Shown here one piece after another: positions 5,401 to 29,555 of a DNA stretch of 34,389 nt. Location of the stretch: contig CANRIU010000018.1 of NCBI GenBank assembly GCA_947630755.1, positions 1-34,389 of the forward strand, given 5' to 3'. The DNA comes from an uncultured Oscillospiraceae bacterium (GTDB taxonomy: Bacteria; Bacillota; Clostridia; Oscillospirales; Oscillospiraceae). The notes under the pieces are model-generated. The model saw only the letters and a program-made list of their open reading frames with translations, had not been told where the DNA came from and did no database searches. A program made the position numbers and the translations under genes. The first letter of the stretch is position 1; each line of letters starts with the position of its first letter.

Positions 5401-5502
5401 TGTCAAAAAACTCAAATTCAATATTTTTTCCGGCGACATATGCGTCGGAAAAAATCCCGCACGTTCCCCCTTGTCGGAAAAGCCCGAAGGGCTTTTTCGA
5501 CA
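5401..5502 (+). repeat. Dispersed palindromic element, copy A (basic form)
   Basis: The copy starts TGTCAAAAAACTCAAATTCA, continues into a hairpin whose arms are TTTTTTCCGGCG and CGTCGGAAAAAA (about 5425-5453), then CCGCACGTTCCCCC. It ends in a hairpin with arms TGTCGGAAAAGCCC and GGGCTTTTTCGACA (5472-5502). The same modules recur at 10445-10634, 12323-12396 (inverted), 13437-13520, 17269-17502 and in part at 29527-29555. It lies between the convergent degV and fakA genes. Confidence 0.8.
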
Positions 5503-5530
5503 AATTGAAAATGACCCCTTCAGTTTATTA

Positions 5531-7219
5531 TTACTCCGCGGAGATCATGTAGTAGTACACTGGCTGACCGCCGGAGATGAGCTGTATGTCCGCGTCCGGG
5601 AACAGGGCGGCAAACTTCGCCTCCACGGCCCGGGCGGCCTCCTCGCTGACATCCTCGCCGTAGAAGACCGTCAGGACCTCCGGGTCGAAGTCCCGGACGG
5701 CGAGGGCTATGCCGCCGATGAGCTCCGCAAGGTCCGAGGTGCTGGCGAGAAGGTTGTTCTCCAGCAGCGCCAGATACTCCCCCGCCTTTATCTCATTCCC
5801 GTCGAACTCCGAATCCCTGGCGGCGTAGGTGACAAGGGCGGTGTGGACTGTGCCGCAGGCGTCGGTCATGGCCTCGGTGAGCTCGTCTGCCTCGAGGGAG
5901 TCGTCAAAGCACACGAGCGCCGAGATCCCCTGGGGGACGGTCTTTGAGGGTATTACGACCACGTTCTTCTTCGTGAGCCTGTCGCACTGCTGGGCAGCCA
6001 TAATAATGTTCTTGTTGTTGGGCAGGACGAAAACCGTCTCCGCCGGGACGGACTGCACCGCCCTCAGTATATCCTCCGTGGAGGGGTTCATGGTCTGCCC
6101 TCCGGTGACAAGGGCGTCCACGCCGAGGTTTTTGAACACGGCCTCCATGCCCTTGCCGGCGCAGACGGCAACAAGGCCGTATTTCCGCTCCGGCTCCACA
6201 TCCACGGGCTCGGCGGAGCTCTTCTCCATCTCCTCAAGCTCCCGCTCCACCTGCTCCAAATCGTCGGTGGACTGGGCCTTTCTGCCCGCGGCCAGGTCGT
6301 CGCGCTGGGTGACCATGTTCTCTATCTTGGCAAGCTCCAGCGTGCCGTACTGCTGGGCGGCGTTCAGGGCGTCGCCGGGGGTGTTGGTGTGGACGTGGAC
6401 CTTGAAGGCGTCGTCGTCCTCGCCTATGACAAGGCTGTCGCCTATGGAGCCAAGATACTCCCGGAAGGGGTCCAGGTCCACGTCGGGGTCGTTTTTCCTG
6501 ACGATGAAAACAGTGTCAAAGGCGAAGGTTATCTCCTCATCGCCCATGGAGGCGAAGTCCGCGGACTCCGACGCGGGCTCCTCCCCGGGGACGTGCTCTA
6601 TGGGGCAGCCGTTGACGGCGGAGAGCATACCCCTCAATATGTAGAGATACCCCTTTCCTCCGGCGTCCACCACTCCGGCCTTCTTTAGCACCGGGTTTAA
6701 GTCTATGGTGTGGGCAAGGGCCTCGTCCCCGGCGGCGAGCATGGCGTTGAACATCTCCTCAATGTCGGAGCCATTTTCGGCGTAGGCCCGGGCGGTCTCC
6801 GCGCAAACGCGGGAGACGGTGAGTATCGTGCCCTCGGTGGGGCGCATGACGGCCTTGTACGCCGCCTCCACCCCGCGGGTGAGGGCCGCGGCAAGCTCCG
6901 ACGCGCCGCAGACGGTCTTCTCCTTGAGGCTCTTGCCCATGCCCCGGAAGAGAAGGGAGAGTATTACCCCGGAATTCCCCCGGGCGCCCCGCAGGAGGGC
7001 GCTTGCCACGGTGTCGGCAATGGCGGTCACGGTGTCAAAGGACCCGGCCTTCAGCGCCGTCACCCCGGAGCCCATGGTAAGGCTCATGTTTGTCCCCGTG
7101 TCCCCGTCAGGGACAGGGAATACGTTGAGCTCGTTTATCTGCTGCTTGTGCTGCTCCAGAAGCGCCGCGCCGGAGATTATCATGCTCTTCAAAAGCGCGG
7201 CATCAATCGACTGTACCAA
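5531..7219 (-). CDS. fakA: Fatty acid kinase FakA (DAK2/YloV family)
   Basis: FakA phosphorylates a fatty acid held by a FakB/DegV protein, making acyl-phosphate for PlsX/PlsY-dependent phospholipid synthesis. This 562-residue protein has the family's usual length. The N-terminal DhaL/DAK2 kinase domain has the metal/ATP motif NVFPVPDGDTGTN with Asp38 and Asp40, then GARGNSGVILS. The C-terminal half matches the YloV domain, which docks FakB. A Glu/Asp-rich linker lies at roughly 305-335. The asp23-like gene sits 14 bp upstream, as in many Firmicutes (yloU-yloV). The start MVQSID follows the family N-terminus. This call is very secure. Confidence 0.94.
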   Translation of the reverse strand: MVQSIDAALLKSMIISGAALLEQHKQQINELNVFPVPDGDTGTNMSLTMGSGVTALKAGSFDTVTAIADTVASALLRGARGNSGVILSLLFRGMGKSLKEKTVCGASELAAALTRGVEAAYKAVMRPTEGTILTVSRVCAETARAYAENGSDIEEMFNAMLAAGDEALAHTIDLNPVLKKAGVVDAGGKGYLYILRGMLSAVNGCPIEHVPGEEPASESADFASMGDEEITFAFDTVFIVRKNDPDVDLDPFREYLGSIGDSLVIGEDDDAFKVHVHTNTPGDALNAAQQYGTLELAKIENMVTQRDDLAAGRKAQSTDDLEQVERELEEMEKSSAEPVDVEPERKYGLVAVCAGKGMEAVFKNLGVDALVTGGQTMNPSTEDILRAVQSVPAETVFVLPNNKNIIMAAQQCDRLTKKNVVVIPSKTVPQGISALVCFDDSLEADELTEAMTDACGTVHTALVTYAARDSEFDGNEIKAGEYLALLENNLLASTSDLAELIGGIALAVRDFDPEVLTVFYGEDVSEEAARAVEAKFAALFPDADIQLISGGQPVYYYMISAE

Positions 7220-7233
7220 GGCTTATTCCTCCA

Positions 7234-7584
7234 TCAATCAAGACTTATCGAGTCCACAAACACGTCCACGGACCTGACGGCGATACCGGTGGCCTCCGTG
7301 ACCTTGTACTTTACCTCGCTTATTATGCTGCTGCACAGGACCGGGATGTTCACTCCCTGGTCCACGATAATATGCAGGTCGATATTGATGTAGTCCTCGC
7401 CGTAGGCTATGTGCACGCCCCTGCCCATCGCCTCGGGCTTCAGAAGATGCACAAGCCCGTCGGTGACGGAGCGCATCGCCATGCCCTTTACGCCGAAGCA
7501 GCTCGTCGCGGCGTCGCCGACAAGGGTGGTTATAACGTCGGGCGAGACGGAGATTACGCCAAGGCTCGTTTTGAATCTAACCAT
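7234..7584 (-). CDS. Asp23/Gls24 family envelope stress protein (YloU-like)
   Basis: This 116-residue protein belongs to the small Asp23/Gls24 family, with the typical GVISVSPDVI start, the AATSCFGVKGMA segment and a central VDLHIIVD-like strand (IDLHIIVDQGVNIP). Members are cytoplasmic or membrane-associated and linked to cell-envelope homeostasis; their biochemical role is unclear. The ATG at 7584 is preferred over the upstream TTG at 7602 because AAGGAG lies 7 nt before it. It is co-directional with fakA (14 bp gap), so the two form an operon. A possible promoter is TATAAT on the minus strand (7632-7627) with a weak TTGTGT 17 bp upstream. Confidence 0.9.
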   Translation of the reverse strand: MVRFKTSLGVISVSPDVITTLVGDAATSCFGVKGMAMRSVTDGLVHLLKPEAMGRGVHIAYGEDYINIDLHIIVDQGVNIPVLCSSIISEVKYKVTEATGIAVRSVDVFVDSISLD

Positions 7585-7763
7585 ACCTACACTCCTTACC
7601 AAAAATCGTTAAGGTCATACATATTGATTATACATCATTATATTCCGGCACACAAGATGCTATTTTGACGTTTTTTTGCCCCTCGGAATGAAATATTTTA
7701 TTCCCGCCGTCTCCGGGCCGCCGATTTTTCGGCAAAATCACCCGGCGAGGGGCAAAATAGGTA

Positions 7764-7792
7764 TTGAATATTCCACGAAAATAGTGTAAAAT
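7764..7792 (+). promoter_or_regulatory. Promoter of the 59-residue membrane protein gene
   Basis: TTGAAT (7764-7769) and TAAAAT (7787-7792) are separated by 17 bp. A strong GAGGAGGT follows just before the ATG at 7827. Confidence 0.55.
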
Positions 7793-7826
7793 ACACATAC
7801 TGTCACTCACTGAGGAGGTCCCACGA

Positions 7827-8006
7827 ATGAAAGAGAAGAAGAGCAGCCTCGTCCTTATTTTGACCGCCGTGATCGTCCTCGCCGCCGTCATAACGGCGTT
7901 TTTATGCCGCAGGCAGATCGGGGCGTTTTTTGCCTCCCTCAAGGCAGGAAAAAAGCCCGCGCCCCGCTTCACCGCCGAGGAGCGCGCGTCCTTCGCGGAC
8001 ATCTGA
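7827..8006 (+). CDS. Small single-pass membrane protein, 59 residues, unknown function
   Basis: The frame begins ATGAAAGAGAAG after an excellent ribosome binding site (GAGGAGGT, 7812-7819) and a promoter-like pair at 7764-7792. It ends at TGA 8004-8006, before a strong terminator. The protein has a basic N-terminus (MKEKKSS), one hydrophobic helix (about residues 8-27, LVLILTAVIVLAAVITAFL), then a basic and aromatic tail. Promoter, ribosome binding site, codon usage and terminator all frame it, so it is likely real. I do not recognise a family. Confidence 0.65.
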   Translation: MKEKKSSLVLILTAVIVLAAVITAFLCRRQIGAFFASLKAGKKPAPRFTAEERASFADI

Positions 8007-8031
8007 TCCGGCAAAAGCCACATCTGATAAT

Positions 8032-8074
8032 AAAATCCCCTCCGCGCCGTATTTTCGGTGCGGAGGGGATTTTT
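8032..8074. terminator. Bidirectional terminator between the 59-residue gene and the XRE gene
   Basis: The arms AAAATCCCCTCCGC (8032-8045) and GCGGAGGGGATTTT (8060-8073) are perfect complements. T-runs follow on the plus strand, and A-runs provide U-tracts for minus-strand transcripts. It serves both convergent genes and overlaps the XRE stop codon. Confidence 0.85.
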
Positions 8075-8282
8075 ATTCGTCCCTTTTATACTCCAGTATG
8101 TCTCCCGGCTGGCAGTCCAGCGCCTCGCATATGGCCTCCAGCGTGGAGAAGCGTATGGCGCTGACCTTGCCGGTCTTTATCTTCGACAGATTCACGTTGG
8201 CGATGCCCACCTTCTCGGATAGGGCGTTGAGGGACATCTTCCTGTCCGCCATCACCCGGTCCAGGCGTAAAATGATCGGCAT
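8073..8282 (-). CDS. XRE/Cro-type HTH regulator (YozG-like), partner of a DUF2975 protein
   Basis: This 69-residue protein is almost entirely one lambda-repressor-like HTH domain: MADRKMSLNALSEKVGI, then NVNLSKIKTGK as the recognition region, ending ICEALDCQPGDILEY. The size and the ending are typical of the small YozG-type regulators that accompany DUF2975 membrane proteins. GAGGTGG precedes the ATG. It lies 9 bp downstream of the DUF2975 gene and is presumably co-transcribed from 8968. The target is unknown; autoregulation is an inference. Confidence 0.9.
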   Translation of the reverse strand: MPIILRLDRVMADRKMSLNALSEKVGIANVNLSKIKTGKVSAIRFSTLEAICEALDCQPGDILEYKRDE

Positions 8283-8291
8283 ATGTCCACC

Positions 8292-8909
8292 TCACAGCGT
8301 CTCGTCCGACTGGCGCTGGAGCTCCTCGCCGTAGCGGAATATCCACGACAGCAGGAACAGCGCCGCCGGGATGAAAAACCGGGAAAGCTCCAGACGGAAA
8401 TTCACGGTGTAGCTTTTCACATACTCCGGGTTCAGGAAATACCCGAACTCAAAAAGCCGCAGCTCCATGGTAAATATCAGAAATTCCGCCACACTGTAGA
8501 CCGCCGCCTGCACCAGCGTCATCCACCCCAGCTTCCGGAGGTTTTCCGACACCGCCAGGTCGAAGGGCCGCCCCTCCGCCATGGGGGCCAGGATCCGGTG
8601 GAGGATGCCCGCCTCCGCCGCCGCGATGGCCAGCACCAGCGCGCCCGTCAGCATCAGCACGACTATCGGCACCAGGGGCCGGGGGCTGCCGGGGACAAGC
8701 TGGGCGAGGTTCAGCCTCACATTTCCCAGCGTCAGGTGCAGGTCCCCGCCCACCAGCACGGCTACCGCATCGTCGTCTCGGATGGACAGGTAGTAGACGG
8801 AGATCATGATGAGGCCCGCGAACAGGAAGATGGCGGTGGCAATGAAGATCACACGGAATATTTTGGCAAATCGGTCCAGCACACGCGCCGTCCTTTTGAG
8901 CTTTTCCAT
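8292..8909 (-). CDS. DUF2975 family membrane protein
   Basis: This 205-residue integral membrane protein has about four hydrophobic segments. One lies near residues 20-42 (IFRVIFIATAIFLFAGLIMI), then a loop, then segments near 80-100, 125-150 and 178-195. The layout, with the signature-like EGRPFDLAVSENLRKLGW in the middle, fits DUF2975, a family of unknown function usually encoded beside a small XRE regulator, as here. The ATG at 8909 is chosen over an upstream one at 8939 because AGGGAGG lies at the right distance, and because the promoter -10 overlaps the longer form. Confidence 0.85.
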   Translation of the reverse strand: MEKLKRTARVLDRFAKIFRVIFIATAIFLFAGLIMISVYYLSIRDDDAVAVLVGGDLHLTLGNVRLNLAQLVPGSPRPLVPIVVLMLTGALVLAIAAAEAGILHRILAPMAEGRPFDLAVSENLRKLGWMTLVQAAVYSVAEFLIFTMELRLFEFGYFLNPEYVKSYTVNFRLELSRFFIPAALFLLSWIFRYGEELQRQSDETL

Positions 8910-8939
8910 AGATGCGCCCTCCCTTTTGAAGATGGGCAC

Positions 8940-8968
8940 AGTATACCACGGATATATATGTTTGTCAA
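8940..8968 (-). promoter_or_regulatory. Strong promoter of the DUF2975/XRE operon
   Basis: On the minus strand TTGACA (8968-8963) and TATACT (8945-8940) are separated by exactly 17 bp, close to the sigma-A consensus. Confidence 0.8.
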
Positions 8969-8972
8969 CTAT

Positions 8973-8995
8973 TATTTAACGATAAACATTAAATA
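8973..8995. promoter_or_regulatory. Inverted repeat upstream of the DUF2975/XRE promoter
   Basis: TATTTAA (8973-8979) and TTAAATA (8989-8995) form a 7-bp inverted repeat just upstream of the -35. It could be an operator for the XRE regulator, but AT-rich palindromes also arise by chance. Confidence 0.35.
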
Positions 8996-9004
8996 TTTTA
9001 TGTA

Positions 9005-9448: not shown

Positions 9449-9487
9449 ATCTGTTTCCTTTCTGTGGCAGCCGCATGGCGCGGCATG

Positions 9488-10405: not shown

Positions 10406-10444
10406 CGTGTACCTCCGCTTTTGATTTTTTACATATAATTCAAT

Positions 10445-10634
10445 AAACTCAAATTCAATATTTTTTCCGGCGACATGCGCGTCGGAAAAAATACCTTTTG
10501 TCGCACAAGTGTGCGGCCCTTGGGCCGTGCGCGCAGGGCGACAGCAGAGTGGTTTTCACTGAATTTCGCAAAATTCAGTGAAAATTACCCGCACGTTCCC
10601 CCTTGTCGGAAAAGCCCGCAGGGCTTTTTCGACA
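10445..10634 (+). repeat. Dispersed palindromic element, copy B (long form with about 90-bp insert)
   Basis: The left module (10445-10494) and right module (10588-10634) match copy A. Between them lies an extra module of about 90 bp made of two hairpins. One is closed by GTCGC (10500-10504) with GCGAC (10538-10542). The other has arms TTTTCACTGAATTT (10553-10566) and AAATTCAGTGAAAA (10571-10584) around a CGCA loop. The same insert occurs in copy E with compensatory base changes. Confidence 0.85.
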
Positions 10635-10665
10635 GTCTTATATAGTATAGCACGGAAAATTGAAA

Positions 10666-10694
10666 TTGACATCCCCTTTTCGGGGAATTATAAT
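10666..10694 (+). promoter_or_regulatory. Consensus promoter of trxA
   Basis: A perfect TTGACA (10666-10671), 17-bp spacer and perfect TATAAT (10689-10694). The spacer carries a short inverted repeat, TCCCC (10672-10676) with GGGGA (10682-10686), which could be a regulator site or chance. Confidence 0.85.
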
Positions 10695-10721
10695 AAAGAA
10701 AAAGAAAAAAGGAGGCAGATC

Positions 10722-11027
10722 ATGGCTGACATTATAAAAACCGATGAATTTGACGGTGCCGTTCTCGGCTCCGAAAAGCCCGTTCTGGTGGATTTCTTCG
10801 CCACCTGGTGCGGGCCCTGCAAGATGCTGGCGCCCGTGCTTGAGGAGGTGGAGGCGGAGCACCCGGAGGTCGCCTTTTTCAAGCTGGACGTGGACCAGTC
10901 CCCGGAGATCGCCAACCGCTACGGCGTCATGAGCATCCCCACCCTCATCCTCTTCAAAAACGGCGAGGAGGCAGACAAGTCCGTGGGCTACATGCCAAAG
11001 GAGGACATCGAGGAATTTCTGGCGTGA
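10722..11027 (+). CDS. trxA: Thioredoxin
   Basis: This 101-residue protein has the thioredoxin fold and the active site WCGPC (29-33, redox Cys30 and Cys33). It also has the cis-proline region [12 protein letters not shown] and the [14 protein letters not shown] segment typical of TrxA. It reduces protein disulfides in the cytoplasm and is recycled by TrxB, encoded divergently. The ATG at 10722 is chosen because GGAGG at 10711-10715 and a consensus promoter precede it. Confidence 0.96.
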
Positions 11028-11034
11028 AATGACC

Positions 11035-11062
11035 TTTGGGGGCGGCATCAGCCGCCCCCAAA
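11035..11062 (+). terminator. GC-rich hairpin after trxA
   Basis: A perfect 12-bp stem (TTTGGGGGCGGC at 11035-11046 with GCCGCCCCCAAA at 11051-11062) has a 4-nt loop. No T-run follows (AAGCATATT), so it may terminate weakly or protect the 3' end. Confidence 0.5.
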
Positions 11063-11159
11063 AGCATATTGCCCCTCCCCCGCCCATAGAGTGGTATAAA
11101 AGGGGGCGGTTTTTACGCAGTGCAGGATAGGCGACCTCCGCTACAAGGAGGTCATAAAC

Positions 11160-11402: not shown

Positions 11403-11440
11403 AAATGTATGGAAAAATCACAAAAAGGGAAAAATAATCC

Positions 11441-11469: not shown

Positions 11470-11476
11470 GCTAAAG

Positions 11477-11560: not shown

Positions 11561-11588
11561 AGAACTTAAAAGAAAAGGAGAAAAAACA

Positions 11589-12320
<732 letters not shown>

Positions 12321-12322
12321 TT

Positions 12323-12396
12323 CCGGCGAAAAAGCCCCGGGGGCTTTTCCGACGCATATGTCGCCGGAAAAATATTGAATTTGAGCTTTTTGACAA
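12323..12396 (-). repeat. Dispersed palindromic element, copy C (inverted, compact form)
   Basis: Read on the minus strand this is TGTCAAAAAGCTCAAATTCA, the CCGGCGACATATGCGTCGG hairpin region, then AAAAGCCCCCGGGGCTTTTT, matching copy A with the middle spacer deleted. It occupies most of the gap between rpsB and tsf, 2 bp after the rpsB stop. Its outer end supplies TTGACA on the plus strand (12390-12395). Confidence 0.8.
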
Positions 12397-12441
12397 GCTG
12401 GAGTAATTTATATACGGAAGAATTTTGAGGAGGACAATATA

Positions 12442-13356: not shown

Positions 13357-13380
13357 GAGCTCCCCAAATCAATAAAGCCA

Positions 13381-13416: not shown

Positions 13417-13436
13417 GCCAAAAAAGGCGGGTTTAT

Positions 13437-13520
13437 CAAAGCCTCAAATTCAATATTTTTTCCGGCGGCATGTACGCCGGAAAAAATACTTTTTTGCCCC
13501 CCGGCAAAAGCCGGGGGGCA
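13437..13520 (+). repeat. Dispersed palindromic element, copy D (variant tail)
   Basis: The left module CTCAAATTCAATATTTTTTC is followed by a hairpin with arms CCGGCG and CGCCGG (perfect, where copy A has a G-U pair). The usual right hairpin is replaced by GCCCCCCGGC-AAAA-GCCGGGGGGC, a perfect 10-bp stem (about 13496-13519). It lies between the convergent tsf and feo transcripts. Confidence 0.75.
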
Positions 13521-13571
13521 TATCAGACCGCTTGAGAGAAGAAATGGAGGTAATAAAGAAGGGGTATGGTT

Positions 13572-16848: not shown

Positions 16849-17253
16849 ATGGTAATTCGAGAGCTTGCGTCCCTTGAGCTCGACACGCTTCTTGACCTAT
16901 ATGAGAGCGTCGGGTGGACAAACTATACCCGTGCGCCGGAGATGCTCCTGAAGGCGTATGAAAATTCCCTGCTGGCGCTGGGGGCTTATGACGGCGGCAG
17001 GCTGGCCGGGGTCATTCGCGCCGTGGGCGACGGATTTTCTCTGGTTTTCATACAGGACCTGCTGGTTTATCCGGAACATCAGCGCAGAGGTATAGGCACG
17101 CAGCTCATGCGTGAGCTGATGAGCCGATTCCCCGATGTCTACCAGATGGAGCTGATGACAGACAACACGGCAAAAACCGCCGCCTTCTACCGATCCCTGG
17201 GCTTTGTCAGGGTCGATGACATTGGCTGCTGTGCGTTTATTAAAAAAATGTAA
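16849..17253 (+). CDS. GNAT family N-acetyltransferase
   Basis: This 134-residue acetyltransferase contains the acetyl-CoA binding motif A (QDLLVYPEHQRRGIGTQL, with RRGIG as the Q/RxxGxG/A loop). It also has the C-terminal TAAFYRSLGFVRVDDIG typical of small GNATs acting on amines or aminoglycoside-like molecules. The ATG at 16849 is preferred to one at 16708, since GAGAGG lies 8 nt before it and a TATAAT at 16804-16809 sits upstream. The substrate is unknown. It is divergent from feo and followed by repeat copy E. Confidence 0.9.
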   Translation: MVIRELASLELDTLLDLYESVGWTNYTRAPEMLLKAYENSLLALGAYDGGRLAGVIRAVGDGFSLVFIQDLLVYPEHQRRGIGTQLMRELMSRFPDVYQMELMTDNTAKTAAFYRSLGFVRVDDIGCCAFIKKM

Positions 17254-17268
17254 AAAATTTTTTCCCCC

Positions 17269-17502
17269 CGCGCACCTTGTCGGAAAAGCCCGCCAGGGAT
17301 TTTCCGACAGGCTGAAATCCAACGTATTTTTTCCGGCGGCATGTACGTCGGGAAAAATACCTTTTGCCGCACAAGCGTGCGGCCCTCCGGGCCGTGCGCG
17401 CAGGGCGGCAGCAGGGTGATTTTCTCTGAATTTCGCAAAATTCAGAGAAAATCACCCGCACGTTCCCCTTGTCAAAAAAGCCAGTCAGGGCTTTTTTGAC
17501 TG
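17269..17502 (+). repeat. Dispersed palindromic element, copy E (longest form)
   Basis: The order is an extra terminator-like hairpin (GTCGGAAAAGCCC region, about 17279-17310), the left module (about 17311-17360), and the long insert. The insert has GCCGC (17366-17370) pairing GCGGC (17405-17409), and a perfect 20-bp stem with CGCA loop (17414-17433 with 17438-17457). The right module ends in GTCAAAAAAGCC/GGGCTTTTTTGAC (17470-17500). It fills the gap between the convergent GNAT and coat genes. Confidence 0.87.
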
Positions 17503-17506
17503 TTTT

Positions 17507-20994: not shown

Positions 20995-23900
20995 TTATCT
21001 TCTCTTCCTGCCGGGGATGAGGCAGGTCGCCGCGAAGGCCGCGAGGCTCAGCGCCATGACCGCGATGAGAAGCGGCATGGGCAGGGAGTCGTCGCCGGTT
21101 GCGGGTGTGTCGTCCTTGTCAACATCCTCTCCGCTGTCCAGAGGCACATCGTCGTCGGGTATCTCGGTGCCGGGCTCCTCGGGAGTGCCGGGGTCGGGGG
21201 CAAGAGGCGTCTCCTCATCGGGTATCTCCGCGCCGGGGTCCTCGGAGGTGCCGGGAGCCGCGGGGGTCACCGGGTTTGCGGGGAACACGGGGCCCGGAGC
21301 GGACTGGGTCACGACCGCGGTGCCGCAGACGGTGAGCTCGTCGAGCATGATGAAGGTGTAGGGCTCGTTCTTGCTCTCCTGAATTGCGCGCTTGAACTCA
21401 AACCTCACGAATCTCGCCGTCAGGCCCTCAAGCTTCATGGTGTAGAGGTGCTTCTCAAACCGGGTGTCGTCAGCCGCGAGGGTAACATCGGGCTCTGCGA
21501 AGGCTCCAACCTCGGTCCAATTCTCGCCGTCGTTGGAGATAAGGAGCTTCAGCCCCTCGGGACCGCCCATTCCCGGTCCGTCGCAAACCACAAAGTCGAT
21601 ACTCGCCCGGCTCAGCTCGTGGGCCGTGCCGAGGTCCGCGGTGACGTAGTAGCCGCTGTTGAGGAAGGTCGTGGCGGTGTCTCCCGCCTCCCAGCCTCTC
21701 TGGAAGCCAAGGTAGGGGCCTCCGGCGGTGTTCATGTTGTACTTGTAGCCTCCGCCGTAGGCGCCGTCCACCAGCTTGCCCTTCAGAGCGCCAATCTCCT
21801 CAAGCTTCGCCTTTCCGGTGTCGTTCATCTCGCCGATGAGCCCGACGGTCAGGTCTCCGCCCTCAAGGCGCACGGTGTCAAGCTCCGCGTCGATGTTGTT
21901 GAAGCCCTTGATGTACTTGTAGGTGTAGTCGTAGATGTCCCTGAGGCCCTCGCCCGTGCCCTCGTTGTAGGCCATGTTGGTGAAGTCCCAGGTCCCCCAG
22001 TACCACGCCTGAGGCGCGGCCTGATAGCCTGTGCTTATTCCGGTCTGGAGGTAGGAGCGGAAGGTGTCCACATAGCCGGGCTTGTTGCCCATCCACTCCA
22101 TCTCTATGCCAAGTCCGTACTTCTTCGCCAGAGACGCGGCGGTGTCCATGCGCTTCTGGTCGTAGTTGTAGCCGTTGGGCTGCATCACGGCGTAGTCGAA
22201 GCCGTAGCTGGCCCAGTCGCGGTAGCCCTCGGCGGTGTAGAAGGGTATCCAGTAGGAGCTGTACTTCTCGCCGACCTCATCCACCATCATGTTGTAGACG
22301 CGGATGGTGTCGTAGATTATCCTGTCGGAGGCGATGGAGGCCTTCTCCTCGAAGTAGTAGAACCCGTCGAGGTAGATGTGCTGGTAATTCTTCGCCTCGA
22401 ACACGTCGACTACCTCCTCCATGTACCACAGGAACACGGAGGCCCTGTCGGAGAGGGTGGCGTCCACGTCGCCGCCGTGGCCCTGGAGGGTGAAGTCAAG
22501 GACCCTGTCCTCCTCAAGGACGCTCACGGTGTAGGAGAGCTTCCCCTCATCGTCGCGGGTGACGGTGACGTACTTCTCGCCCGCCTTGAGGGAGCCCCAC
22601 TTGTCCTGAACGGGGACCGCGGGATACACGGGGATCTTTATGGCGATCCTGTGGTTGTTTATCTCCTCCTGAGTAAGTCCGTTGAGGCCGGAGGGCCTGA
22701 GCTCTCCCTTGAGCTGCCGCATGGCCTCCTCCAGGGCGTCAACTCCGGTGGGGTCGCCGTTGTCCTTATAGTTGAAGGTGTGGTCGAGCTGCGCCTCCCA
22801 GTCCTCTCTGTCGGCGTAGGGCCCGTTGGGCACGCTGGAGTTGAGAAGGTATGTGCTCTTATCCTTTGTCCAGCCGTGGCCCATGAAGGTTATGGAGTCA
22901 TAGAGCCAGTCAAGGGGATTGCCCTCGTTGTCGATATATGCCGCCACGGCCCTCATGTCCTTTACGGTGCGGAAGATCTCGGTGATGGCGCCGTTCACGG
23001 TGCCCCAGCCCTGATACGCAAGGTAGTCGTGGTGGATCTGTTTGGACTCCTCATAGGTGGGCCAGGTGTTTACGATGTTTTTCTCCTCGCCGAATTTCTC
23101 AAGTTTGGTGAGGTCATCGGCGTCGCCGCTGGGAGTTCTGGAGCCCTCGACTATGAGCTCGTCGGGGAATACAAAGACCTCCACATCGAACACAAGGCGG
23201 ATGTACCTTGCGTTGTAATTAAGCCCGGTGAAGCGCATGACGCCCGCATCAAGGGAGTAGCCCAGGCTCTCCCGCTCCACCTCGGTGAGCTCGCCGATGT
23301 TGTAGAAGCTCTCGCCGTCCTCGGAGAGGGCGATCTTCAGTGTGTTGGGGGCGTAGATGCCGTAGCTCTCCTCGCCTCTGAGGGTCACGCGGGTGGGGTC
23401 GCTGATGCCCATGCTCATGCCTACCTCGGTGATGTTGTAAAGGCCGCCAAGGTCAACTATGATGTCGCGCTCGCCGCCGTGGTAGGCGTTGATGTAGAGG
23501 CCGCGACCGGAGCTCAGGTCATCCCAGCTCTTTCCGACCCACTTGGCCTCGTTTGTGAAGCGCTCGGGGTAGTCCCTGGCGTACACGCCGTCGATGAGCC
23601 TGTCGCGGGACTTCTCCTCGACCTCCTCCACCAGAGGCAGGGACTGGTTGTTGTTGTAGTGCCAGGTCGTGTCGGAGAGGGCCCACTGGGTTATTTCGGC
23701 GTCCCTTGTGAGCCTGTTCTCATCCACATCGGGGGTGTCGGGCGTCTCGGGGGCAGCAGCCGCAGGCCTGGCGCCGTTGACGGAGACCTCGTCTATCATA
23801 AGCCATGTGTCGGTCCCGTTGTAGACCTCGGGGTCGAGCACCAGGCGCGAGAAGGCGAAGCGCACATACCTGGCACTGCCCACCGTGTCGATGGTGTAGA

Positions 23901-26900
23901 GGAATTTCTCATAGTTGCCGCTTCCGGTGATGCTCACCTTCATCTTCCCGGCGTCGGTCCAGGTCTCGCCGTCGGAGGAGAGCTGGAGCACGGGGGTGGC
24001 GGGCTCGCCGATTCCGGAGTTCCTGCGGGTCTTTTCGGGCAGGATCTTGCCCACGAGGAAGTCTATTGCCGCCCCGGTGATGTTGTAGTCCTCGCCGAGG
24101 TCAACGGTGATGTAGTTTCCGCTGTTGAGGAACCCGTCGTCAAAGGTCCCTGTCTGCTGCGTGCCCTCCCAAATGCGGCTGAAGCCCACGAAGGAGGAGC
24201 CGGCGGCGTTGACGCTGTTGTAGCCTGCGGGCATGTCCCCGTCCACAAGGACGGCTGTGATCTTATTGGCGCTCTCAAGTCCCGTCACGCCCGCGGCGTT
24301 GGGCTCGCCCGCAAGTCCGACGCTGACCATATCCCCGGTGAGGGCGATGGGTCCGGCGGCGTCGCTGGCGGCGGCCTTTATCTCCACCTCGTCGAACATG
24401 ACGAAGCTGTATGTGGTGCCTGCGGCGGTGTTCGCCTCTCTGACAAACTCGAACCGCACATAGCGGGCGGCGATGTTTGTGGTGAAGGTGTAGGTCTGCT
24501 TCTCATAGTGGTAGGGGTAGAGCATGGAAACCTCGGGCTCCACGTTCAGCGCGGTCCAGCTCTCGCCGTCGTTGGAGGCCTTGACCACAAGTCCCGCGGG
24601 GGCGCCGATCCCGGCGTTGCGGGTGCCGTTTAAGTCCGCTCCGGCAACGAAGTCAAGGGAGAGGCTTGTCACATCGCAGATCTGTCCCAGGTCCGCCTCA
24701 AGGAAGTAGCCGTCGTTGGCGTACTCCTTGCCGCCCTCGGGGATGTCCTCCCAGGTGCGAAGGAAGCTCAAATAGGTGGAGTCGGGCTTGTTGAAGCTGT
24801 TGTCGTAGGTGGGGGCCGTGTATCCGTCCAGAAGCTTGCCGATGAGGCCGTTGAGAGTCTCCAGCCCCTTCAGTCCCTCGGCGTTGGGCTTGCCGAGGAA
24901 TCCGAGGGTGAGCATATCCTCGGTTATCTCCACTAAGGGCCTGCCCTTTGTGGCGGCGTCAATGGTTATCTCATCAAAGCAGATGAAAGCGTAGGTGTTG
25001 TTCTCGTTCTGCTTGTCGAGCTTAAACTCGAAGCGGACAAAGCCCGCGGCGGCGCCGTTGAGGCTGGCGCTGTAAAGCCTGTTCATCTGTCCGGTGGAGG
25101 AGCAGGGGGTCTCCTTCACCTCGTTGAGCTTCGCCTCGGTCCACTTCTCCCCGTCGCCGGAGGTCAGGATCTTAAACTCCCTGGGGCCGCCGACGCTGGC
25201 GGAGACGTAGGTGATGAAGTTCATGGTGATGTCCTGAATGGGGTACTGCCCGCCCAGGTCAAACTGGACGAAGTAGCCGCTGTCGCCCCAGCCCTTGTTG
25301 TAGGCGTCAGCGCTGTACGCGCCCTCCCAGCCGTAGTTGAAGCCGATGCAGGCGCCATTATTTATCGGGTCGTACTTGTTGGAGTAAATGCCGTCGATGA
25401 GCACGCCCTTGGCGGCGTTTATCTTTGCAAGGTTCGTCTCGCCGTCGGCGTTGGGCTTGCCGAGGAAGCCGATAGTCATCATATCCTCGGTGAGCTCCAG
25501 CTTCCCGCCCTCCCCGGAGGGATCGTCGGTGGACTCCTTCGGCAGCTCCACCGTGGCGGAGACCGCGTTGCCCTTTATGTAGTTATAGACCTTGAAGTAC
25601 ACGTCGTGGAGGGTCCCCTTGTCGTAGGCCACCTCGGAGAGCCCGTCGGTGCCCCAGTACCACGCCTGAGGGGCGTTCCGGTACTCTTTGGAAACTCCGG
25701 TGTTCAGGTAGCGGTCGAAGGTCTCCACATACCCGGCCTTGTTGCTTCCCATCCACTCCATCTCGATGCCGAGGCCGTATTTTTTGGCCTGATCGGCGGC
25801 GTTGTCCATACGGTCCTGCCCGTAGCCGTAGCCGTTGGGCTGCATCACCGCGTAGTCAAAGCCCAGGTCCCTCCAGATCTTGAAGCCGTTGACGGTGTAG
25901 TAGGGTATCCAGTAGGAGCTGTATTTTCCGTCGCCCACAAGGTCAAGGACCATGTTGTAGGCCTTTATGGACTGCTCCGCATATTTGTCGTTGGCGATGT
26001 TGACCTGCTCCTCAAAGAAGTAGAAGCCGTCAAGGTAGATGTTCTCATAGCCCTTCGCCTCAAAGCGCCTCACGGCCTCCTCCATGTACCACAGGTACGC
26101 GGAGGCTCTGTCGGAGAGGGTCTTGTTTATGTCCTTATCATGTCCGTCGAGGGTGAAGTCAAGGTGCTTCGCCTCGTCGAGGGTGGTGACCTCCACCTTC
26201 ACGTCCTTGCCGTTTACCGTGACATTGACATACTTGTCGCCTGCCTGAAGCTCGCCCCAGTCGGACTGGCTGCAAATGGCGGGGTAAACGGGGATCTTCG
26301 CCGCGACGGTGTGCCCGGAGATGTCCTCCTCGGTGAGCTTATTTAAGGTGTTCGGCGTAAGCTCGCTCTTTATCTCCCCCACAGCCTTGTCCAGGGCGTC
26401 GATATTGGTCTCGCCGTCGGTGTCGTTGTCGGGGTCGTCAAAGGCGTCGTCGAGCCACTCTATCCACTCCTTCTTCCCGGCGAGCCTGTTGTCGGGATAG
26501 GAGGAGTTTAAGAGCATCAGGGTCTCGTCGGAGGCCCAGCCGTGGCCCATGAAGGTCACGGAGTCATAGAGCCAGTCGTAGGGCGTCCCGTCCTGGTCCA
26601 CAAGGGCGACCACGGCGCGGAAATCCTTCACTGTCTTCTTTGTGGGGAGGAGGTCCTTCCCGTAGCGCCCCCAGCCCTCGTAGGCGAGGAAGTCGTGCTT
26701 TATCCCGCCGGACATCTGGGTGGTGGGCCACTCGTTCACCGCGCCAAGGTCCGTGCCGAACTTCTCGCCGCTCTCAAGGTCGTCAGGCTCGGCGGCGGGG
26801 GTGGTGGAGCCCAGTATGGACACCTCGTCCATAAACACCCACACGTTCACGGGGAACACTATCTTAATATACTTTGCGTTGAAGTTGAGGTTTTTCTCGG

Positions 26901-27498
26901 CAAGGTGCCCGCCGTCCAGGGCGTAGCCGACCTGCTCACGGCCCGTTATCTCGGTGACGTGGGCCGCAAGGTAGAAGTCCTCGCCGTTCTCGGAGAGGTA
27001 GAAATCCATGTAGGGCACGGCGTCGATGCCGTAGCTCTCCTTGTCCCTCTCCCTAACATCGGTGTCGCTTATACCGATGCTGGCGTCTATCTGCCTTATG
27101 TTGTAAAGGCCGCCCAGGTCCGCGGTGATGGCGCGGCTTGTCCCGCGGAAGATGTTGAGGAAGAGCCCGCGCCCGCCCTCGGTGTCACTCCAGCTCTTTC
27201 CGACCCAGCCGGAGTCGGCGGCAAAGAGCTCGGTGTGGTCCTTCATGAAATTGCCGTCGAAGATACGCCCCGCCGTGGTGGTTTCCACTGTGCGGATCGG
27301 ATCTCCGTTGCCGTTATAATTCCAGGATTCGTTCTCAATGTAGTAGTCTGTGATTTTTGCGTTTCCGGTGAGGCTCACAAGCCCTGACGCCGGGTCGTCG
27401 TCCTCCAAGGCTGTCACCGTGGACGGCAGCAGCGAAGCGACCATCGCCAGCGCCAGGATACAGGTGACAAGCTTTGAAAGTGCCCTGTGCTTTCTCAT
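20995..27498 (-). CDS. Giant wall-anchored surface protein with duplicated discoidin-like + DUF4855 modules
   Basis: This 2167-residue exported protein has a signal peptide (about 1-30). Module 1 has an F5/8 type C (discoidin)-like domain (about 43-229) and a DUF4855-like domain (about 269-620). Three shorter discoidin-like repeats follow (starting about 666, 856 and 1051). Module 2 repeats the pair (about 1261-1451 and 1486-1834), and a fourth short repeat starts near 1876. The two DUF4855 copies are close, sharing AVMQPNGY, KKYGLGIEMEWMG and APQAWYWGT. A Pro/Glu/Asp-rich spacer (about 2066-2130) leads to TPATG (2131-2135), a hydrophobic helix and RKRR, a sortase-type sorting signal. Likely a carbohydrate-binding, possibly glycoside-acting, wall protein. 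GAGGTAGGA precedes the ATG. Confidence 0.88.
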   Translation of the reverse strand: MRKHRALSKLVTCILALAMVASLLPSTVTALEDDDPASGLVSLTGNAKITDYYIENESWNYNGNGDPIRTVETTTAGRIFDGNFMKDHTELFAADSGWVGKSWSDTEGGRGLFLNIFRGTSRAITADLGGLYNIRQIDASIGISDTDVRERDKESYGIDAVPYMDFYLSENGEDFYLAAHVTEITGREQVGYALDGGHLAEKNLNFNAKYIKIVFPVNVWVFMDEVSILGSTTPAAEPDDLESGEKFGTDLGAVNEWPTTQMSGGIKHDFLAYEGWGRYGKDLLPTKKTVKDFRAVVALVDQDGTPYDWLYDSVTFMGHGWASDETLMLLNSSYPDNRLAGKKEWIEWLDDAFDDPDNDTDGETNIDALDKAVGEIKSELTPNTLNKLTEEDISGHTVAAKIPVYPAICSQSDWGELQAGDKYVNVTVNGKDVKVEVTTLDEAKHLDFTLDGHDKDINKTLSDRASAYLWYMEEAVRRFEAKGYENIYLDGFYFFEEQVNIANDKYAEQSIKAYNMVLDLVGDGKYSSYWIPYYTVNGFKIWRDLGFDYAVMQPNGYGYGQDRMDNAADQAKKYGLGIEMEWMGSNKAGYVETFDRYLNTGVSKEYRNAPQAWYWGTDGLSEVAYDKGTLHDVYFKVYNYIKGNAVSATVELPKESTDDPSGEGGKLELTEDMMTIGFLGKPNADGETNLAKINAAKGVLIDGIYSNKYDPINNGACIGFNYGWEGAYSADAYNKGWGDSGYFVQFDLGGQYPIQDITMNFITYVSASVGGPREFKILTSGDGEKWTEAKLNEVKETPCSSTGQMNRLYSASLNGAAAGFVRFEFKLDKQNENNTYAFICFDEITIDAATKGRPLVEITEDMLTLGFLGKPNAEGLKGLETLNGLIGKLLDGYTAPTYDNSFNKPDSTYLSFLRTWEDIPEGGKEYANDGYFLEADLGQICDVTSLSLDFVAGADLNGTRNAGIGAPAGLVVKASNDGESWTALNVEPEVSMLYPYHYEKQTYTFTTNIAARYVRFEFVREANTAAGTTYSFVMFDEVEIKAAASDAAGPIALTGDMVSVGLAGEPNAAGVTGLESANKITAVLVDGDMPAGYNSVNAAGSSFVGFSRIWEGTQQTGTFDDGFLNSGNYITVDLGEDYNITGAAIDFLVGKILPEKTRRNSGIGEPATPVLQLSSDGETWTDAGKMKVSITGSGNYEKFLYTIDTVGSARYVRFAFSRLVLDPEVYNGTDTWLMIDEVSVNGARPAAAAPETPDTPDVDENRLTRDAEITQWALSDTTWHYNNNQSLPLVEEVEEKSRDRLIDGVYARDYPERFTNEAKWVGKSWDDLSSGRGLYINAYHGGERDIIVDLGGLYNITEVGMSMGISDPTRVTLRGEESYGIYAPNTLKIALSEDGESFYNIGELTEVERESLGYSLDAGVMRFTGLNYNARYIRLVFDVEVFVFPDELIVEGSRTPSGDADDLTKLEKFGEEKNIVNTWPTYEESKQIHHDYLAYQGWGTVNGAITEIFRTVKDMRAVAAYIDNEGNPLDWLYDSITFMGHGWTKDKSTYLLNSSVPNGPYADREDWEAQLDHTFNYKDNGDPTGVDALEEAMRQLKGELRPSGLNGLTQEEINNHRIAIKIPVYPAVPVQDKWGSLKAGEKYVTVTRDDEGKLSYTVSVLEEDRVLDFTLQGHGGDVDATLSDRASVFLWYMEEVVDVFEAKNYQHIYLDGFYYFEEKASIASDRIIYDTIRVYNMMVDEVGEKYSSYWIPFYTAEGYRDWASYGFDYAVMQPNGYNYDQKRMDTAASLAKKYGLGIEMEWMGNKPGYVDTFRSYLQTGISTGYQAAPQAWYWGTWDFTNMAYNEGTGEGLRDIYDYTYKYIKGFNNIDAELDTVRLEGGDLTVGLIGEMNDTGKAKLEEIGALKGKLVDGAYGGGYKYNMNTAGGPYLGFQRGWEAGDTATTFLNSGYYVTADLGTAHELSRASIDFVVCDGPGMGGPEGLKLLISNDGENWTEVGAFAEPDVTLAADDTRFEKHLYTMKLEGLTARFVRFEFKRAIQESKNEPYTFIMLDELTVCGTAVVTQSAPGPVFPANPVTPAAPGTSEDPGAEIPDEETPLAPDPGTPEEPGTEIPDDDVPLDSGEDVDKDDTPATGDDSLPMPLLIAVMALSLAAFAATCLIPGRKRR

Positions 27499-27755
27499 TT
27501 TTCCTACCTCATTTCTGAAAAAATTTTCGGCTGGACTGTTCGCCCGAGCCGTGTCTCATGGGCCCATTATAGACTAAAAAATACCAAAAAAGAAATGAAT
27601 ATTTTCAAAAATACTTGTCAAATCGTACAAATACCCGGCAAATAATAGATATTTCTTCAACTATTTTACTGCCGATTTGCTGATTTTTCTCATTATTTCA
27701 AAAAAATTTTGGAAATAAATTTCAATTTTTTAAATTTTCCCCGCGCCGGGCCGAG

Positions 27756-27845
27756 ATTTGGGTGCGGTCAGGCGCGGATTTCGTAAAAATTTCCCGAAAT
27801 TTGGGCGCGGTCAGGCGCGGATCTCGTAAAAATTTCCCGAAATTT
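27756..27845 (+). repeat. 43-bp tandem repeat (two units) with internal palindromes
   Basis: Two units start at 27756 and 27799 and differ at only a few positions (GGGTGCGG against GGGCGCGG, GGATTTCG against GGATCTCG). Each ends in the palindrome AAATTTC-CC-GAAATTT shared with the unit border (27787-27802 and 27830-27845). The second palindrome abuts a TTGACA at 27845-27850. Confidence 0.85.
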
Positions 27846-27888
27846 TGACAAAAACCACCTTGATTTGGCAAAATATCCGCGGCCGGGG

Positions 27889-27917
27889 TTGCGATTTTTT
27901 AAAAGAAGTGATATACT
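27889..27917 (+). promoter_or_regulatory. Promoter of the exbB/exbD-like operon
   Basis: TTGCGA (27889-27894), 17-bp spacer and TATACT (27912-27917). A second candidate is TTGACA (27845-27850) with CAAAAT (27869-27874), 18-bp spacer. Confidence 0.55.
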
Positions 27918-27992
27918 TCCGTAAAACGGAGGGCGGCGGGATCCGGCGTATTTTCCTGTGTCCCCGTACAACGCAGGAAGGGCGGCGGAAGT

Positions 27993-28571
27993 GTGCTTTT
28001 CATATCAAAGCTCCTGGCGGCGGTGCTCAATCCCGCAATAATCATTCTCATGGCGGCGGAGCTGCTTCTGGCCTGCGCCTCCGTGCCCAGGCTCCTGGCC
28101 TCCAGGCGGGAGCTGGGGACCCTGACGGGTGTCAAGAGGAAGCTGGAGAGCCGGCGCCGCAGCCCCTCAAGGCGGATAACCGACGTGGTGAGCATCACCA
28201 CCGAGGAGGACTGGGAGTCCTACGTCCGCTTCCGGGAGACGTACCGGAGGCGCCTGAAGCTCTACGACATTTTTGCCTCGGCGGTGCAGCTTTTCACCCT
28301 TCTCGGGATACTTGGCACGGTGGCGGGGCTTTACATCGCGCTGAGCTCCGCCGAGGGCAGCGCCCGGGACATAACCTACGAGGGCATCGGCTTCGCCCTG
28401 AGCTCCACTATCCTTGGCATTATCGGCGCCGTGGTGTTCAAGACGGTGGATATGTTCACCGTCACGCTCATTCTGAACCCCATTGAGGACACCCTCGACC
28501 TTTTTGAGAAGGACTACGGGGTGAAAAACGACTCCATAAAGGGCGAGGAGGCCCGGGAGGCCGGGGAATGA
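27993..28571 (+). CDS. MotA/TolQ/ExbB-type proton channel protein
   Basis: This 192-residue protein has three predicted helices: about 10-30, about 95-118 with LFTLLGILGTVAGLYIAL, and about 131-150 with GIGFALSSTILGIIGAVV. The last two segments match the pore-lining helices of TolQ/ExbB, which assemble as a pentamer and conduct protons together with ExbD/TolR. A basic, Arg-rich cytoplasmic region lies between helices 1 and 2. The start is a GTG at 27993 with a GGAAGG-type ribosome binding site. It overlaps the ExbD-like gene by 4 bp (ATGA). ExbB-like motors normally act across a Gram-negative periplasm, so the target here is unclear. Confidence 0.85.
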   Translation: MLFISKLLAAVLNPAIIILMAAELLLACASVPRLLASRRELGTLTGVKRKLESRRRSPSRRITDVVSITTEEDWESYVRFRETYRRRLKLYDIFASAVQLFTLLGILGTVAGLYIALSSAEGSARDITYEGIGFALSSTILGIIGAVVFKTVDMFTVTLILNPIEDTLDLFEKDYGVKNDSIKGEEAREAGE

Positions 28572-29113
28572 GGCGCCGCCGGGGCTCCGGCAGGGAGGAG
28601 ATAAACCTGACGCCGCTGCTGGACGTGCTCTTCTCCATACTGTTCATTGTGCTGCTCGCCGGGGCGCGGATGGAGCAGGACCGGGTGGACGAGGCAAAGG
28701 CCGAGGCCGACGGCCTCCGGCAGGAGCTCTCCCAGGCCCAGGACACCGCCGAGGGGTACAAAATGCAGCTTGAGAGCATGGAGGTATTTGAGGAGGAGGC
28801 CACGGTGCTGACCCTCCGCAACACCTCCGGCGAGGGAGGGCACAGGCTGCTTATCTCCCGGGACAACGACGCCTCCGCCGAGGTGATCCCACTGGGCCCC
28901 GACAGGCTGGAGAACGTGAAGGCGCGGCTTCGTGCGCTGGTGGAGGGGGAGCTGGACGGCTCCGGGGCGCCGGTGTTCGTGGTGTTCCACTGTGACCGGG
29001 ACGCCATCTACCGCCGGGAGTACGAGGCGCTGACGGACACGCTGTCGACCCTTCAGCGGGATAACAAAGAGGTATTTTTCAAGCTTTTAAACAGGGAGGA
29101 AGAAACAAAATGA
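28568..29113 (+). CDS. ExbD/TolR-like protein
   Basis: This 181-residue protein begins with a basic tail, then EINLTPLLDVLFSILFIVLL. That is the ExbD/TolR transmembrane signature, with the functional Asp19 that carries protons. A charged coiled-coil-like stretch (about 36-75) follows. The C-terminal region (about 135-175, VFVVFHCDRDAIYRREYEAL-type) resembles the extracytoplasmic ExbD domain. The 4-bp overlaps with both neighbours show a tightly coupled three-gene unit. Together with the ExbB-like protein it should form an ion-driven motor. The presence of the key Asp makes this call fairly firm. Confidence 0.82.
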   Translation: MRRRRGSGREEINLTPLLDVLFSILFIVLLAGARMEQDRVDEAKAEADGLRQELSQAQDTAEGYKMQLESMEVFEEEATVLTLRNTSGEGGHRLLISRDNDASAEVIPLGPDRLENVKARLRALVEGELDGSGAPVFVVFHCDRDAIYRREYEALTDTLSTLQRDNKEVFFKLLNREEETK

Positions 29114-29520
29114 AAAAAGTGATTGCAATCGTGCTTGTTGTGGCGGTGGTCGGGGTCGTAGTGTACCTGTTCGCCATGGGCAACGGCTTCGGCTTCGGCA
29201 AGGGCAGCGGAGAGGGCGACGTCCCCGCGGACAGTCAGGATGAGCCCGAGACGCCCGAGGAGCCGGAGGAGCCCGAGGAACCGGAGGAGCCGGAGGAGCC
29301 CGGCGAGGGCGGCGCCGTCAGGGTCACTGTCCGCGAGGACACGGTGACGGTTGACGGGAAGGAGTTTAAGGACGCCGACGCCCTCCGGGAGTACATCGAG
29401 AGCACAAACACCGACGGCAAAACCTATGAGCTCTACGAGGAAAACGCCATCCTCTCCACCTACGAGTGGGCGGTGAAGGTCTTTGAGGATCTGAGCATCC
29501 CTCTTAAGACCGAGGCATAA
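29110..29520 (+). CDS. Membrane-anchored protein with Glu/Pro repeat linker and ExbD-like distal domain
   Basis: This 136-residue protein has one N-terminal helix (about 3-22), a Gly-rich stretch, and a rigid EEPEEP-repeat linker (about 45-64). A small distal domain follows (about 69-133: RVTVREDTVTVDGKEF, then STYEWAVKVFEDLSI), which resembles the beta/alpha domain of ExbD/TolR proteins. Unlike the ExbD-like gene its helix lacks an Asp, so it would not carry protons. It may be an accessory arm that reaches through the wall. It overlaps the upstream gene by 4 bp. The ExbD-like fold is inferred from pattern, not proven. Confidence 0.7.
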   Translation: MKKVIAIVLVVAVVGVVVYLFAMGNGFGFGKGSGEGDVPADSQDEPETPEEPEEPEEPEEPEEPGEGGAVRVTVREDTVTVDGKEFKDADALREYIESTNTDGKTYELYEENAILSTYEWAVKVFEDLSIPLKTEA

Positions 29521-29526
29521 AACAAG

Positions 29527-29555
29527 CAAAAAAATCCCGCTAGGGCTTTTTCGAC
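29527..29555 (+). repeat. Dispersed palindromic element, copy F (right-end fragment)
   Basis: AAAAAAATCCCGCTAGGGC followed by TTTTTCGACAG matches the tail hairpin of copies A and B with the left arm degenerate. It lies directly after the ExbD-like operon. Confidence 0.5.

Follow-up and report, generated by a model that had tools for sequence, protein, structure and literature searches.

The palindromic repeats of the window (the whole 34,389-nt stretch of Oscillospiraceae DNA analysed here) are very probably miniature inverted-repeat transposable elements (MITEs) mobilised in trans by IS1182-family transposases. Sequence comparison shows many dispersed copies with shared inverted ends and abutting duplications, along with IS1182 elements that have like ends and duplications. 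The initial annotation, which described a modular repeat family under selection for RNA or cruciform structure and correctly guessed Oscillospirales as the group, was right that the family is real but missed its transposable nature, visible in the inverted terminal repeats, the target-site duplications and the IS1182-family relatives with the same ends.

The six pieces first proposed have the sequences attributed to them, and five are supported as family members. The sixth, at 29527-29555, may at most be what is left of the right arm of a hairpin 4 and has no entry among the matches listed for model R1 (150 of 1516 candidates scored). Boundaries and make-up required revision (Table 1): copy A was redrawn, copy D breaks off beyond hairpin 1, the second hairpin there being unrelated, and copy C looks like a fusion. 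Copies A and B differ mainly in the absence or presence of hairpins 2 and 3; since the short form without both is dispersed in several genomes, these two hairpins are probably dispensable for movement.

Table 1. Repeat copies and their parts in the window (R1 bit scores come from a model whose training set includes copies B and E)
Feature	Positions	Strand	Remarks
Left flanking hairpin of copy A (left copy of target-site duplication)	5360-5395	.	AAAGCGGTCATTTTCACTCAGTGAAAATGACCGCTT, then at once CAGCTTGTC
Copy A, short-form MITE	5396-5507	+	Exact end pattern CAGCTTGTCAAAAAA at 5396-5410; R1 109 bits (5398-5507); layout: left end, hairpin 1, CCGCACG linker, hairpin 4, right end
Right flank of copy A	5508-5520	.	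Half of left hairpin remaining, AAAATGACCCCTT
Copy B, full-form MITE	10440-10639	+	R1 228 bits (10435-10639); left end eroded, neither ends nor duplication recognised (locus L034)
Hairpin 1 of copy B	10459-10493	+	Within R2 match 10450-10543, E 3.2e-13
Hairpin 2 of copy B, with conserved internal loop	10500-10542	+	
Hairpin 3 of copy B	10544-10592	+	
Hairpin 4 of copy B, terminator-like	10603-10635	+	
Copy C, inverted, apparently fused hairpins 1 and 4	12321-12400	-	Left end CAGCTTGTCAAAAAG; R1 47 bits over 12162-12398
Copy D, truncated left part with hairpin 1 only	13437-13494	+	R1 55.5 bits over 13431-13526
Apparent hairpin-4 right end of another, truncated copy, immediately left of copy E	17269-17310	+	R1 25 bits over 17235-17314
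Copy E, full-form MITE without clean left end	17311-17506	+	R1 206 bits over 17299-17506
Possible remnant of hairpin-4 right arm	29542-29557	+	29542-29565 83% identical to 5488-5511

The family extends well beyond these copies. Copy B as a blastn query returned 80 HSPs in its own genome, and R1 found at least 63 non-overlapping places there at 55 bits or more (150 of 1516 candidates scored), which together exclude chance. Repeats occur in about 30-31 of the 34 genus genomes (31 in the genus table), and none of 95 placed copies lies inside a gene by our in-house gene calling. Short, noncoding and dispersed in many copies, the repeats thus have the general character of MITEs.

Further MITE features are found at their borders. 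The terminal inverted repeats consist of CAGNNTGTCRAAAAA and its complement; the exact end pattern has 18, 106, 66 and 36 matches in genomes G000, G032, G012 and G025, against 0, 0, 0 and 2, respectively, for the reversed pattern. Duplications were sought at the 50 of 106 distinct copies with both ends recognisable, the other 56 being left out: abutting target-site duplications are present at 35 and absent at 15, against 12 among 970 mismatched flank pairs. Thirty of the 35 duplications (15-36 bp) span a hairpin, which therefore stands on both sides of the element, in two cases with an inverted loop; this is not the pattern of IS1272-type replacement of an inverted repeat, where the target hairpin is lost and no duplication arises. 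In other genera, long flanking repeats are seen at 12 of 45 core loci and at 0 of 175 mismatched controls. An empty-site comparison at the DegV-DAK gap met intergenic DNA too diverged for alignment; the gap is short in loci L241, L245, L246 and L249, with a terminator-like hairpin and no element, and longer in three further loci (two viewed in part).

Terminator-like hairpins are the usual insertion target of the elements, and this bears on the earlier statement that the repeats are "not simply terminators". That statement was right, as was the report of copies in convergent, divergent and tandem gaps (convergent gaps are enriched, divergent ones under-represented), although hairpin 4 is itself terminator-like in copies B and E. 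Both the enrichment in convergent gaps and this hairpin would suit elements acting mainly as bidirectional transcription terminators and spread by selection for termination. We consider this highly improbable: inverted ends and duplications require a history of transposition, and most tested copies already have a duplicated terminator-like hairpin as their own flank, so the elements add to existing terminators.

Candidate autonomous partners are IS1182-family transposases scoring 378.8 and 436.4 bits against the curated NF033551 cut-off of 270, a cut-off exceeded in 30 of 300 family genomes. IS1182-family elements with ends of this kind occur in the genus and in other genera (G001, G013, G015 and G031, among other genomes), the G015 element having both ends and duplication perfect, and in G060 a MITE (L327) and an IS1182 element (L398) share the start CAGACTGTCGAAAAACT. 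Insertion at palindromes, a trait of some members of the IS1182 family, is seen here as well: duplicated hairpin flanks accompany 9 of 16 distinct IS1182 loci examined, the own genome's copy included, and 7 are without duplication. Co-occurrence is weak, both for the core in IS1182-positive and IS1182-negative family genomes (28 of 42 vs 134 of 258, p 0.09) and for the partner in repeat-rich and repeat-poor genus genomes (8 of 19 vs 2 of 15, p 0.13).

Intergenic position, palindromic structure and high copy number would also be expected of REP/BIME palindromes dispersed by a RAYT (Y1) transposase. Such palindromes are not known to carry inverted terminal repeats or to duplicate their target, whereas the elements here do both, together with IS1182 elements whose ends match; on these features the probability of a RAYT origin is close to nil.

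Inside the element lies a structured core. Double-sided changes occur at 19 of 21 core pairs (66 distinct sequences), a count that none of 500 shuffles equalled, and covariation is far above both shuffled and slid controls, neither of which models kinship; covarying pairs above controls are what a functional structured RNA should display. The covariance search thus turned up many intergenic copies in the genome and its relatives, rather than only the copies first noted and no covariation. The paired changes reported between copies B and E hold: T10501-A10541 is replaced by C17367-G17408, and A-T by T-A in the CACTG/CAGTG stem. G-U exceeds A-C mismatches in three comparisons (42 vs 15, 63 vs 15 and 20 vs 4, counted as sequences rather than events), pointing to a structure maintained on one strand; in set A2 the G-U excess falls almost wholly within hairpin 3. 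Of the proposed selection on RNA or cruciform structure, selection on a one-strand structure is therefore supported, and its action at the level of RNA is likely.

Long, almost perfect stems in which entire segments have been swapped at once might result if paired changes arose by copying from arm to arm during replication (quasipalindrome correction) instead of by selection on the folded strand. Such copying predicts equal numbers of G-U and A-C mismatches, contrary to the counts above, and does not predict the loop of hairpin 1 (ACATGYG) and the internal loop of hairpin 2, conserved over many genera amid variable stems. We regard it as an improbable source of the covariation.

Of 300 family genomes sampled, 162 carry the core, as do 3 of 398 genomes of a phylum sample, own genome included. 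Matches come from 74 genera in all. The sole match outside the order (G555) is without the conserved loop and looks like chance. In the f7 genomes (G042 and others) hairpin 1 is held in common and hairpin 2 aligns poorly, so their kinship is less sure. Searching viral contigs with one exact core pattern gave no match. The initial annotation's view that no named family fits stands: the window has no Rfam match at gathering score, relaxed searches with 7 and 14 loci reached no family's gathering score and gave nothing credible, and no description of the element was found in the open-access literature searched.

This breadth, together with the strong covariation, the conserved loops and the G-U excess, also agrees with a reading that would add to transposition: that the host cell makes use of the core as a noncoding or cis-regulatory RNA, the transposon being a mere carrier. 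Against it, hairpin 2 is missing from the short form, and in most tandem gaps the modelled strand runs antisense to the genes alongside (37 vs 16 in the genus, 22 vs 8 in other genera), so a core RNA would need its own promoter. On balance a host role is a real possibility, though the less probable side. A promoter candidate at the left end of copy A (TTGTCA-16-TATTTT at 5400) is not relied on, as its start point would land within hairpin 1, and a possible pseudoknot of the hairpin-1 loop with the CCGCACG linker, judged by eye, was dropped.

For the preferred reading of MITEs moved by IS1182-family transposases, we propose that the transposase binds the CAGNNTGTCRAAAAA ends and picks out terminator-like hairpins through their shape, perhaps as extruded cruciforms. 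The element would be joined to the 5′ foot of each stem-loop, with gap repair then leaving a whole hairpin on either side; in this way it could settle downstream of genes while hardly disturbing termination. The structured core kept inside the element comprises hairpin 1 (ACATGYG loop) and hairpin 2 (internal loop); its pairing is maintained on one strand, the likeliest reason being that this strand is transcribed into RNA. More speculatively, and with the chances rather against it, the core may represent a hitherto undescribed class of RNA in this bacterial family (two hairpins, with the ACAUGYG loop and an internal loop conserved) that the element itself encodes and that acts on host or transposase. 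Insertion would then pass through an extruded cruciform, each of its two arms turning into one of the flanking hairpins; this route is hinted at by the inverted loops seen at MITE copies and at IS1182 copies alike.

There is precedent for MITEs, for MITEs derived from IS1182 and for hairpin targeting within the IS1182 family; what appears to be new is whole-hairpin duplication on such a scale, together with a family-wide structured core. The results connect an uncatalogued, family-wide structured element with a transposase family that already has a name, and two questions become directly testable: the way in which IS1182 transposases recognise hairpins, and the job of the conserved core. More generally, compensatory substitutions within a bacterial repeat can be the signature of a mobile element.

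With REP/BIME palindromes and their RAYT transposases the elements share dispersed intergenic palindromes in high copy number. Structured bacterial MITEs such as QMITE2, BOX, RUP and SPRITE, some of them terminator-like, are likewise short intergenic mobile repeats with transcripts predicted to fold, according to the sections concerned of a review (PMC10969869); they have other ends, hosts and partners, and core-pair covariation across many genera of one family is the feature here. Closer are the IS1182-derived MITEs listed for Methanosarcina acetivorans with ISMac2 as partner (PMC3852290), also short non-autonomous elements assigned to an IS1182 partner; their host is archaeal, and the passage listing them mentions neither terminator targeting nor a conserved structured core. 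Closest are IS1272 and TnSha1 of staphylococci, IS1182-family elements that target stem-loops without sequence specificity, several of them confirmed terminators (relevant parts of PMC4923244 and PMC5678879). Whole-hairpin duplication, of which the present elements supply many natural cases, was found in the literature searched only as a drawn IS1272 model, where route 3b-6b predicts it (PMC5678879, Fig 13 legend). As these sources describe them, IS1272 and TnSha1 partly delete or replace the hairpin without duplication, whereas here the whole hairpin stands on both sides of most recognised flanks.

The repeat copies named in the initial annotation are all present at their sites and have modules in common, and the paired base changes described there were confirmed when those stretches were read. 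The covariance search that it proposed, run with a model trained on 22 full copies (R1), matched many copies in the source genome GCA_947630755.1, an incomplete assembly (2.19 Mb, 98 contigs, 89% complete) of which the window is one contig. With 150 of 1516 candidates scored, there were 131 matches at E ≤ 1, palindromic parts being counted on both strands, and at least 63 non-overlapping places at 55 bits or more; the fragment near 29527 is absent among the R1 matches listed from these 150. Copy B, a full form, gave 80 HSPs as a blastn query against the same genome. Five copies are longer than usual (L120, L127, L135, L158 and L119; 265–309 bp, with additional internal sequence), and a tandem array of a ~40 bp hairpin unit (TCTTACGGGGAAAGGCTTTAGCCTTTTCCCG) adjoins the right flank of copy L027 on contig 12 of genome G000.

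The element extends from CAGNNTGTCRAAAAA to TTTTTYGACANNCTG, as judged from flanks viewed for 60 of 107 listed copies. Of 106 copies confirmed as distinct from one another, 50 had both ends recognised by a script; the other 56 were left out as eroded, truncated or unrecognised. In 35 of the 50, the flanks match within three bases of both ends, against 12 of 970 mismatched-flank controls, and under a stricter score 31 of 50 lie above the 99th percentile of these controls. Only five of the 35 duplications are hairpin-free (7–12 bp); the remaining 30 contain a hairpin and are 15–36 bp long. The exact end pattern returned 18, 106, 66 and 36 matches in four genomes of the genus, and the reversed-pattern control 0, 0, 0 and 2. 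In other genera, a long repeat stands on both sides of 12 of 45 core loci (mismatched control 0/175), mostly as hairpins, with L320 and L344 not clearly so. There is good support for the element inserting at terminator-like hairpins and duplicating the whole hairpin.

Transposases of the IS1182 family, the probable mobilizing partner, were found through fetched pieces and a protein search (10 of 38 genomes), two of them scoring 378.8 and 436.4 bits (family cut-off 270). Duplicated hairpins flank nine of the 16 distinct IS1182 loci examined, and in seven of these nine the CAG..TGTC ends abut the duplication exactly, whereas in the remaining two, L291 and L296, the called repeat runs over into the end; the source genome's own IS1182 copy, of a second subfamily (CAGTCTGTCGACAAAC), is one of the nine. 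No duplication was found at the other seven loci, some of which lie close to a contig end. Many end-pattern matches in genome G012 are located at contig ends, as expected from a multicopy IS. The reading of the repeats as a MITE superfamily whose ends are of IS1182 type is well supported. Co-occurrence is weak: the core is found in 28/42 partner-positive vs 134/258 partner-negative family genomes (p 0.09, two samples of 300 being taken as the same genomes and overlaps counted by eye), and the partner in 8/19 repeat-rich vs 2/15 other genomes of the genus (p 0.13, overlaps likewise counted by eye). The weakness could be due to MITEs that outlive their partner and to assemblies that break at IS copies; even so, it remains evidence against the IS1182 partnership.

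In two of the 30 hairpin duplications (L040 and L050) one copy has its loop in reverse-complement orientation relative to the other. The same inversion distinguishes the two hairpin copies at the IS1182 locus L398 (genome G060) and the hairpins found in G012 where contig 22 ends and contig 33 begins, so that it occurs at both MITE and IS1182 copies. Such loops are not predicted by simple staggered cutting, nor explained by any simple cut-and-fill scheme; a cruciform step might yield them.

RNAalifold on 22 copies from the source genome gave 58 pairs, with double-sided changes in 26. Within the order, 21 of 394 sampled genomes (11/168 genera) carry hairpin 1 with ≤2 mismatches, and none of the sample has the reversed pattern. 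In other genera the sequence beside hairpin 1 follows the plan of the element. A second model, R2, built from eight copies from other genera only, matches the source genome at E 6e-14 and copy B at 3e-13, a test only partly independent because hairpin 1 served as the handle for finding those eight copies. R2 matches were obtained in 162/300 sampled family genomes (74/106 genera), with no more than 13 candidates per genome being scored, but in only 3/398 genomes of a phylum sample, one being the source genome and another, G555, probably a chance match. Across 66 distinct core sequences, 97.8% of cells pair and 19 of 21 pairs show double-sided changes. The covariation score is 0.433 vs 0.040–0.094 with the partner slid and 0.165 for shuffles, in an alignment fitted to the model, which biases it toward structure and is shared by the slid controls.

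At pairs whose commonest state is Watson-Crick, G-U outnumbers A-C by 42 to 15, 63 to 15 and 20 to 4 in alignment sets A1, A2 and A6, figures that count sequences rather than independent changes. Such an excess is a sign of one-strand selection, equal numbers being expected otherwise. The lean is seen in all four helices of A1; in A2, hairpin 3 contributes 51 to 6 and the other three 4 to 1, 5 to 5 and 3 to 3. Plus-strand DNA in a single-stranded state would tilt the counts in the same direction as RNA. A functional RNA from the structured core is plausible but unproven.

Twenty short-form candidates were fetched from nine genomes, L384 being left out as an adjacent full form was shown instead. 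By eye, 17 of 19 carry hairpin 1 and, no more than three bases further on, CCGCACG and hairpin 4. Several, most clearly L387, retain intact ends and lie between hairpins that match each other, which indicates that the element can probably move without hairpins 2 and 3. Copy C resembles the product of a deletion from GTCGGAAAA of hairpin 1 to that of hairpin 4.

R1 was run on 60 related genomes, scoring no more than 40 candidates in each, and matched 34 of them at E ≤ 0.01: 31 of 34 within the genus (G003, G007 and G021 gave no match; G016 and G027 a single weak one each) and G034, G042 and G052 beyond it. A named collection scanned by pattern holds at least 80 matching loci. Of the 80 listed, 68 are from uncultured Oscillospiraceae MAGs with isolate names starting Lapin, a name that by itself suggests a rabbit gut source; the other 12, from other organisms, reached at best E 0.88 with R1. 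G042 (family f7; L085, L092, L094–L118) also harbors a second high-copy hairpin family with hairpin 1 in common, other modules and long, near-perfect hairpins on its right side.

Using genes called by a home-made program that had been trained on the window, 95 of 106 copies could be placed (11 were at a locus edge): 35 in convergent, 53 in tandem and 7 in divergent gaps, with none called inside a gene. Compared with gaps ≥60 bp in the window and all fetched loci ≥6 kb, copies are under-represented in divergent gaps (p 0.002) and over-represented in convergent ones (p 0.0003); this background is rough, as it takes in the element-bearing gaps themselves and loci of other organisms. Copies in tandem gaps have their plus strand antisense to the genes 37 times and sense 16 times (p 0.005). 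Among the 45 other-genus core loci, 22 are antisense and 8 sense, 10 are convergent and 1 is divergent, and 4 lie at an edge. Two further features of the window are tabulated: a promoter-like site preceding a thioredoxin-like gene, and a long frame whose direct repeats, ~3660 bp apart, are 73–82% identical in the stretches listed and whose product is perhaps a cell-surface protein.

Coordinates of element copies and neighboring features in the window
Feature	Positions	Strand	Description
Copy B	10440..10639	+	Full form
Promoter-like site	10666-10694		TTGACA-17-TATAAT, 12/12 sigma-70 consensus, 27 bp after copy B
Thioredoxin-like gene	~10722-11027
Copy C	12321..12400	-	Hairpins 1 and 4 apparently fused
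Open frame	20995-27498	-	2167 codons, internal duplication, hydrophobic tail

No earlier description of this MITE was found in the open-access literature searched. MITEs of one archaeon are assigned to IS1182 in a table (PMC3852290), and MITE transcripts are described as forming stable stem-loops (PMC10969869). Two IS1182-family elements, IS1272 and TnSha1, target stem-loops, several being confirmed terminators, and remove the target hairpin partly or wholly, leaving no duplication (PMC4923244, PMC5678879). Route 3b-6b in the Figure 13 legend of PMC5678879 gives a stem-loop duplicated at both ends, and, going by that legend, the elements described here resemble naturally occurring examples of this route.
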